Below, one piece after another: positions 15,405 to 38,093 of a stretch of 38,093 nt of DNA. Position 1 is the first letter of the stretch. Each line of letters opens with the position of its first letter. The DNA is from Chloroflexota bacterium (lineage in GTDB: Bacteria > Chloroflexota > UBA6077 > JACCZL01). Under the pieces are notes generated by a model. The model was given only the letters and a program-made list of their open reading frames with translations. It did no database searches and was not told the DNA's origin. Where the stretch lies: assembly GCA_020850535.1 (NCBI GenBank), contig JADZEM010000073.1:1-38093 (forward strand), in the 5' to 3' direction. A program made the position numbers and the translations under genes.

Positions 15405-15445
15405 GTGTTGGGTCGTGGATTGTAGGTCGTGGGGAAGGGATCACG

Positions 15446-15528
15446 CCCACGACCCACGACCCACGACCCACGACCCACGACCCACGACCCACGACCCACG
15501 ACCCACGACCCACGACCCACGACCCACG
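15446..15528. repeat. Tandem heptamer CCCACGA, about 12 copies
   Basis: Eighty-three bases are an almost perfect array of the 7-bp unit CCCACGA, between the permease stop and the convergent folE stop. Just before it (15408-15432) are two inverted copies of the unit (GGGTCGTGG and GGTCGTGGGG), so transcripts from the plus strand could fold back on the array. It is a simple-sequence repeat prone to copy-number change and possibly a bidirectional transcription stop. It is not a CRISPR array, as there are no spacers. Confidence 0.85.
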
Positions 15529-18662: not shown

Positions 18663-18701
18663 CAGGGCGATTGCACGTAGGGCACGTCGTGCAATCGCCC
18701 T
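18663..18701. repeat. Minimal 39-bp palindromic repeat, copy D
   Basis: AGGGCGATTGCACG (18664-18677) and CGTGCAATCGCCCT (18688-18701) are exact reverse complements around a ten-base loop. These arms are the same terminal repeats that bound the longer copies at 26105, 30775 and 37841, so this looks like an end-to-end remnant of that family. Placed between two convergent genes, the 14-bp stem could also stop transcription in both directions. Confidence 0.75.
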
Positions 18702-18725
18702 ATCACCGGTCCCCTGCAACCTCGC

Positions 18726-25998: not shown

Positions 25999-26392
25999 GG
26001 GTTGCCGGGGACAGGGAGCAGGCCAGCGACCTGTCAGTCGTAAACGATCGGCCTGGGTCGCTGCCGACGCTTCTCCGTCATCCCGAGCGATGTGACGAAG
26101 GAGCCAGGGCACTTGCATGTTCGTTGGTGTTCCCGAAACGCCGTCAAACGAGCGGTCGGGGCTTGAAAGCCCCGACGAGGCTGCACGACGAGACCAGCAG
26201 GCAATCGCCCTGACGAGGGAGCGAAGTCGAGGGATCCTCCCCGGCGGACCGAGTAGAGACTTCAGGAAGATCCCTTCCACTCCGCTCGTCCCTCGCTACG
26301 GTCGGGATGACGACCAGTGAGTACTGCGTGACCCGGCGACTGACATCTGACGAGCGACGAGCCTCCGTAACCTGTCACCAATCTCCTGTGAC
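25999..26392. other. Repeat-filled intergenic region, no gene
   Basis: Nearly 400 bp without a credible gene between the convergent AKR and RpiB genes. It contains an outer inverted repeat (CGTCATCCCGA at 26076-26086 against TCGGGATGACG at 26302-26312) that encloses a palindromic element, copy C. Inside the outer arms are GAGGGATCC/CCCTCGCT-type motifs seen in dispersed repeats of many bacteria. The last 70 bases hold nothing I can name. Confidence 0.55.
26105..26212 (-). mobile_element. Collapsed 108-bp palindromic element, copy C
   Basis: Bounded by CAGGGCACTTGCATG and CAGGCAATCGCCCTG, the same terminal repeats as the 217-bp copies. Its left part matches the right end of the copy at 37841 read in reverse (TTCGTTGGTGTTCCCGAA, then GTCGGGG), and its right part matches that copy's left end (GCACGACGAGACC). 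The central section between the two inner hairpins is missing, leaving one perfect hairpin at 26155-26176. An imperfect 10-bp direct repeat ACGA(A/G)GGAGC flanks it exactly (26095-26104 and 26213-26222), like a target-site duplication. It encodes nothing, so any movement would need a transposase in trans. Confidence 0.65.
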
Positions 26393-30660: not shown

Positions 30661-31016
30661 CGTTGCTCTCCCAGAAGGCGCGGTCTGCTCGTCTCAGGCC
30701 AGGCGGCCGAGGTCGCGCCTGTCGGGAACGGTAGGCGATCAGGGCCATGCCGTCAAGGCGAGCGGCCGGCCCGCCAGGGTGATTGCACGTTGGGCTTGCC
30801 GTGCAGCGTGGTCGGGGCTTGAAAGCCCCGCCTACCATCCTGCAGTCGCTGCGCGACGCTCCAGTCTGACCGGTCGACGCTGTTCCCGGCTGCCGTCGCG
30901 CAGCGACGGAGCGAGTGTAGACGGGGGTTTCAACCCCCGACTGCGCGTTTCGCGACGGTATGGGAACACCGACGAACATGCAATCGCCCTGGCCGGCCGC
31001 CCAACTGGACTCTGGA
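30661..31016. other. Intergenic region dominated by palindromic element B
   Basis: No gene is credible in these 356 bp. Positions 30775-30991 are a full-length palindromic element (separate entry); 30661-30774 is the upstream region of the VOC gene, and the last 25 bases run to the stop of the next VOC gene. Confidence 0.6.
30775..30991 (+). mobile_element. 217-bp palindromic element, copy B (MITE/REP-like)
   Basis: The ends CAGGGTGATTGCACG and CATGCAATCGCCCTG are inverted terminal repeats. Going inward on both sides come a first hairpin (GTCGGGGCTTGAAAGCCCCG then CCTAC on the left; GTAGACGGGGGTTTCAACCC then CCGAC on the right) and a second hairpin (GTCGCTGCGCGAC left, GTCGCGCAGCGAC right). 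The whole element is thus an imperfect palindrome of two mirrored modules. It has the same length and order as the copy at 37841. GCCGGCC lies just outside both ends, a possible target duplication but weak evidence in GC-rich DNA. No coding capacity. Confidence 0.75.
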
Positions 31017-37692: not shown

Positions 37693-37743
37693 GGCGTATC
37701 CGCCATGATGGCGTATCCGCCATGATGGCGTATCCGCCATGAT
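37693..37743. repeat. Three tandem 17-bp repeats upstream of the S51-like gene
   Basis: GGCGTATCCGCCATGAT occurs three times head to tail with no gaps or mismatches, ending in ACGG. Each junction contains CGCCATGATGGCG, an inverted repeat with 5-bp arms and a 3-base centre. The array lies 55-105 bp before the S51-like start. The perfect identity suggests recent duplication or selection, such as a set of operator sites. Confidence 0.7.
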
Positions 37744-37840
37744 ACGGTCGCTCGCCAGCGAGGAGGCCAGCCTGCCCGCACCGGCCCTCTGCATGATGAT
37801 CCGAACGCCTGTGCGGATTCAAGAACGCCTGCACGACGGC

Positions 37841-38057
37841 CAGGGCGATTGCATGATGGTCTCGTCGTGCCGCCGCGTCGGGGCTTGAAAGCCCCGCCTA
37901 CCATCCTGCAGTCGCTGCGCGACGCGCCAGTCGCACCAGTGCCGGCCGTTCCCGGTGTCCGTCGCCCAGCGACGGCGTGACTGTAGGCGGGGACTTCAGT
38001 CCCCGACCGCCCGTTCCATGATGCTTCGGGGACACCAATGAACATGCCATCGCCCTG
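37841..38057 (+). mobile_element. 217-bp palindromic element, copy A (MITE/REP-like)
   Basis: The ends CAGGGCGATTGCATG and CATGCCATCGCCCTG are inverted with one mismatch in 15. On the left come GTCGGGGCTTGAAAGCCCCG-CCTAC and GTCGCTGCGCGAC; on the right, in mirror order, GTCGCCCAGCGAC and GTAGGCGGGGACTTCAGTCC-CCGAC. The core from the first hairpin to the second (37878-37925) is almost identical to the same segment at 30811. Flanks show no direct repeat. It cannot encode a transposase. A single-stranded form would fold into nested hairpins, as REP/BIME or MITE elements do. Confidence 0.75.
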
Positions 38058-38093
38058 ATGCTGCTACCAGTGCAATCGCATGTTGATGTCGTC
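38058..38093. other. Window end after copy A
   Basis: The last 36 bases contain GTGCAATCGCATG, similar to the terminal repeat of the palindromic family but without its CCCTG end. A further element might begin beyond the window; this cannot be decided here. Confidence 0.25.

Follow-up and report, generated by a model that had tools for sequence, protein, structure and literature searches.

A 217-bp non-coding element with ISAs1-type ends and REP-like hairpins, dispersed in hundreds of copies through a Chloroflexota genome

The window analyzed here is the entire contig C73 (38,093 bp) of a 7.65 Mb genome in 227 contigs. Four related elements had been predicted in this window, at positions 37841, 30775, 26105, and 18663, and all four are found in place. 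The lengths given for the first three (217, 217, and 108 bp) hold, and the fourth, reported as 39 bp, is 40 bp when measured to the last TIR base. The copy at 37841 (termini CAGGGCGATTGCATG and CATGCCATCGCCCTG) is real but not solitary, as it is followed by a spacer and by a second unit beginning at 38068. The features are as follows:

37841-38057, + strand: 217-bp MITE forming the first unit of a head-to-tail dimer; TIRs at 37841-37855 (left) and 38043-38057 (right, the altered end that faces inward)
37831-37840, no strand: left flank GCACGACGGC, the expected outer target duplication of the dimer, positioned by analogy with dimers that have exact duplications
37877-37902, - strand: REP-like hairpin 1, reading GTAGGCGGGGCTTTCAAGCCCCGAC on that strand; its stem is base-paired in 97-100% of 125 copies
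37911-37973, no strand: arms of the central GTCGC...GCGAC stem, with a variable center
37983-38007, + strand: REP-like hairpin 2, GTAGGCGGGGACTTCAGTCCCCGAC, GTAG tag 98-100% conserved
38058-38067, no strand: 10-bp inter-unit spacer ATGCTGCTAC, the class A founder spacer, identical at 20 sampled junctions
38068-38093, + strand: start of unit 2, with the damaged inner end CAGTGCAATCGCATG (CAGTG), cut by the contig end at 38093
30775-30991, + strand: 217-bp monomer, flanks GCCGGCCCGC and GCCGGCCGCC, a 10-bp duplication with two mismatches
26105-26212, no strand: 108-bp single-hairpin derivative, flanks ACGAAGGAGC and ACGAGGGAGC, one mismatch
18663-18702, no strand: what remains of two facing ends (40 bp), with no target duplication found

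The two mirrored hairpin modules described in the original prediction are likewise real, with arms of 48-53 nt that are 79% complementary and 35 nt between them. For the dimer at 37841, a right-flank match to the outer target duplication was sought and not found (three near matches, versus four for the control). Other repeats also occur in this window. Approximately 100 bp to the left of the 37841 element, a 17-mer (GGCGTATCCGCCATGAT) is present in three perfect copies (37693-37743), and a minisatellite of ∼12.6 copies of the 7-mer CACGACC (15442-15528) occupies a gap beside a GTP cyclohydrolase I-like gene. The 108-bp element is nested in a second dispersed intergenic repeat (GTCATCCCGAGCG...GAGGGATC; 26060-26104 and 26213-26320), relatives of which were seen at 16 of the loci sampled, some of them adjoining MITE copies.

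A whole-element search of the genome with the 217-bp query returned 118 matches, and the 13-base core of the end (at most one mismatch) occurs 662 times, compared with 2 occurrences of a reversed control. These end cores correspond to approximately 330 elements, or close to 1% of the genome, and the possibility that the palindromes are coincidental, which the proposed genome-wide count was meant to address, is not borne out. The exact 15-bp end, in its CAYG form, is found 383 times in this genome, twice in G001 (a genome of the same family and a sister genus), once in G017, and not at all in the remaining 38 of 40 related genomes, which points to an expansion specific to the host lineage and absent in the 40 relatives.

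Copy statistics were obtained from a 767 kb sample (10% of the genome), chosen largely around search matches, which contains 147 end-paired elements. The main length is 217 bp (87 copies), followed by 218 bp (20 copies), with minor classes of ∼108 and ∼203 bp, and the ends of the copies coincide. Predicted genes are overlapped by ∼10% of the elements, versus 81% of random positions, as judged with a crude gene caller. In a sample biased toward element matches, 47 of the 57 contig termini examined coincide with an element; by this placement, the elements shape how such genomes assemble. Among the monomers in the 767 kb sample, 32 are flanked by exact 10-bp direct repeats and a further 10 by repeats with one mismatch, while many of those that lack such repeats sit at contig ends or within arrays. 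The non-autonomous transposable element that had been proposed is thus upheld by copy number, coincident ends, and exact target duplications, and the palindromes are very probably copies of a 217-bp non-coding MITE of the ISAs1 IS family. In two MITE copies, at C112:21524 and C141:40379, the 10-bp target duplications are exchanged, reflecting either recombination between copies or a chimeric assembly.

The assignment to ISAs1, for a family to which no name could initially be given, draws on three features: CAGGG...GCAT ends, the 10-bp duplication, and an autonomous IS with the same ends. The last of these, a larger transposase-bearing element of the kind originally sought, was found in G001 as a complete 1,256-bp ISAs1-family IS (NF033564; PF13808 and PF01609) with an open transposase frame; both of its ends are exactly the 15-bp terminus listed above for the left end of the 37841 copy, although no 10-bp duplication occurs at its own flanks. 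A search of the MITE-bearing genome with the NF033564 family recovered a broken ISAs1 copy in C136, bounded on the outside by CAGGGCGATTGCATC and CAGGGGGATTGCATA, and, in C187, a fragment with CAGGGCGATTGTATA in front of it. The C136 copy (C136:21107-27873) is a homolog of the G001 IS (∼77% DNA identity), and an insert of roughly 5.5 kb interrupts it. Only decayed copies, and no intact ISAs1 transposase, were found in this assembly (96% complete). The expectation that the enzyme would be encoded elsewhere is consistent with the same-ended element in the sister genus and with this decayed homolog. The sequence shared by the MITE and the IS is limited to about 15-17 bp at the ends, the MITE being geneless and its interior unrelated to that of the IS, and so the link to the enzyme rests on the ends and the duplication length.

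The family signature was checked on ISAs1 elements drawn from plasmids and genomes. CAGGG-type ends with exact 10-bp duplications occur at ISAs1 elements of Thiodictyon, Hydrogenophilus, Paraburkholderia, Azotobacter, and Acidiphilium, and also of G004 and G041. Inverted ends of the CAGGG type are also present in four cyanobacterial elements and one Hymenobacter element, and a search of these five found no matching duplication. When 84,980 named species genomes were scanned for paired ends, three small Herminiimonas/Oxalobacteraceae elements (L114, L115, and L116) came to light with identical 15-bp ends, a visible flanking 10-bp repeat at each, and unrelated interiors, showing that small elements of an independent lineage use these ends as well. 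The small element at L114 is itself strongly palindromic, and the sole ISAs1 IS detected in that Herminiimonas genome differs somewhat at its ends. Given the identical ends and the shared family signature, we infer that the 15-bp ends are recognized by an ISAs1-family DDE transposase, which mobilizes the non-coding unit and generates the 10-bp duplications.

The interior of the element consists of an inverted pair of GTAG-tagged REP hairpins in a BIME-like arrangement, each module having the anatomy of a REP, with GTAG followed by GGGGCTTTCAAGCCCC or an allele of it. The REP/BIME-type unit that had been offered as an alternative to a transposable element therefore also describes the interior, and both halves of that "or" hold, with MITE ends around a REP pair. 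Of 125 copies compared, 97-100% have the stems of the hairpins and of the center paired, with compensatory alleles at columns 153-160 and 154-159, and the GTAG is 98-100% conserved while neighboring bases are at 51-86%. There are 703 occurrences of the hairpin motif in this genome and none in the 40 relatives. Similar to known REPs and BIMEs, these units combine a GTAG tag, a GC-rich palindrome, inverted pairs, and hundreds of intergenic copies (PMC2817692, PMC3733652). In the 767 kb sample, however, every hairpin lies within a CAGGG-ended element, or at the edge or in a truncated copy of one, with no free-standing REP units outside elements, and the genome differs from REP/BIME systems in having no detected RAYT and no bias of the hairpins to convergent gene ends.

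The known association of GTAG-tagged REPs with RAYTs (PMC2817692, PMC3733652) raises the alternative that a RAYT (a Y1 tyrosine transposase) mobilizes these units and that the CAGGG ends are incidental, and the anatomy of the hairpins does match that of RAYT-associated REPs. No Y1_Tnp was detected in this genome (96% complete) or in two genomes of the same family, and no free REPs occur in the sample. On these grounds a RAYT origin was rejected. The 10-bp target duplications at the CAGGG ends also argue against it, as elements of the IS200/IS605 type have neither terminal inverted repeats nor larger target duplications (PMC2817692), and we regard this alternative as very improbable indeed. A role for individual copies in the host, for instance as transcription terminators or mRNA-stabilizing hairpins, is somewhat easier to entertain and still quite unlikely. 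The conservation of the stems with compensatory changes would fit such a role, as would the private variants, which, per free state, are about half as common in stems (p = 0.008). Singletons per site, on the other hand, are much the same in stems as outside them (p = 0.33), the elements are absent from the rest of the class, and their setting (60 co-directional, 27 divergent, and 13 convergent, with the crude gene caller) is like that of random intergenic positions. With no excess between convergent genes and no orientation bias, a terminator role was rejected, and no host function is indicated. The uniform singletons might be read as resident copies being wholly unconstrained, a reading that is weakened by the per-state test of private variants. 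Shared variants are strongly depleted in stems, and nearest-neighbor differences, which are mostly reshuffled shared variants, were not counted as new mutations. Together these patterns suggest that selection on structure acts mainly in propagating lineages, the hairpins most likely being kept because the fold aids transposition or makes insertion less costly.

Many copies occur as head-to-tail pairs spaced by exactly 10 bp. The class A spacer recurs as noted above and a second, AGTCACGAAC, occupies 11 sampled junctions, with a few variants of each; the 37841 copy is the first unit of one such class A dimer. At the outer flanks of twelve dimers there are exact 10-bp duplications distinct from the spacer, and dimers probably transpose as single units. 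Mean mismatches per 30 bases are 3.4 at inner ends, 0.6 at outer ends, and 1.3 in monomers (the p-value of 1e-4 overstates independence, as dimers from one founder are related). Alternatively, monomers may have become dimers in place, through gene conversion or unequal recombination involving dimers already present. The copies are indeed mosaic, with all four combinations in 90% of common site pairs, and the reciprocal exchange between C112 and C141 could be a further instance, unless the assembly is chimeric. The damage to inner ends beside intact outer ends speaks against dimerization in place, as does the likeness of class A units, which reaches beyond the junction: in each of the four quarters, unit 1 copies resemble one another more than they resemble monomers, and the same holds for unit 2 copies. 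We consider this origin unlikely, while noting that copies do recombine with one another. The pattern itself is one of founder dimers having spread with decay of their inner ends. In terms of mechanism, dimers probably arose by insertion beside the target duplication of an existing copy, after which a few founders would have spread as compound units by using their outer ends, with the inner ends decaying meanwhile.

Combining these observations, we tentatively propose, as a possibility that falls somewhat short of an even chance, that an ISAs1 DDE transposase rather than a RAYT propagates the REP/BIME hairpins, that the hairpins are cis elements of transposition, and that tandem dimers with disabled inner ends have spread part of the family.

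Similar to other bacterial MITEs (Correia/NEMIS, RUP, ERIC, and Nezha; PMC3733652), the element is short and non-coding, with terminal inverted repeats, high copy number, and strong secondary structure; it differs from these in its ISAs1-type ends, its GTAG-tagged REP interior, and its frequent 10-bp-spaced dimers. Head-to-tail copies of one element are also known as IS30-type tandem dimers, which are 2-bp spaced, active intermediates (PMC9333248), and from tandem MITE arrays in coral, which are ascribed to slippage (PMC2872659). The dimers described here differ from both in recurring with their 10-bp spacing at many loci with new target duplications. A literature search, to which subscription papers were outside the scope, found no prior report of this element family, of REP-bearing ISAs1 MITEs, or of MITEs forming dimers in bacteria. 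Larger palindromes that contain REP dimers have been reported with no enzyme named, CGTC REPs are known that have no dedicated transposase, and the question of how tagged REPs without a dedicated transposase are mobilized was left open (Di Nocera et al., PMC3733652). The present family provides a concrete case of that question, and a testable one now that its ends, its target duplication, and an IS to match are available. Its founder spacers and decayed inner ends also form a natural record of dimeric MITEs apparently moving as compound units.
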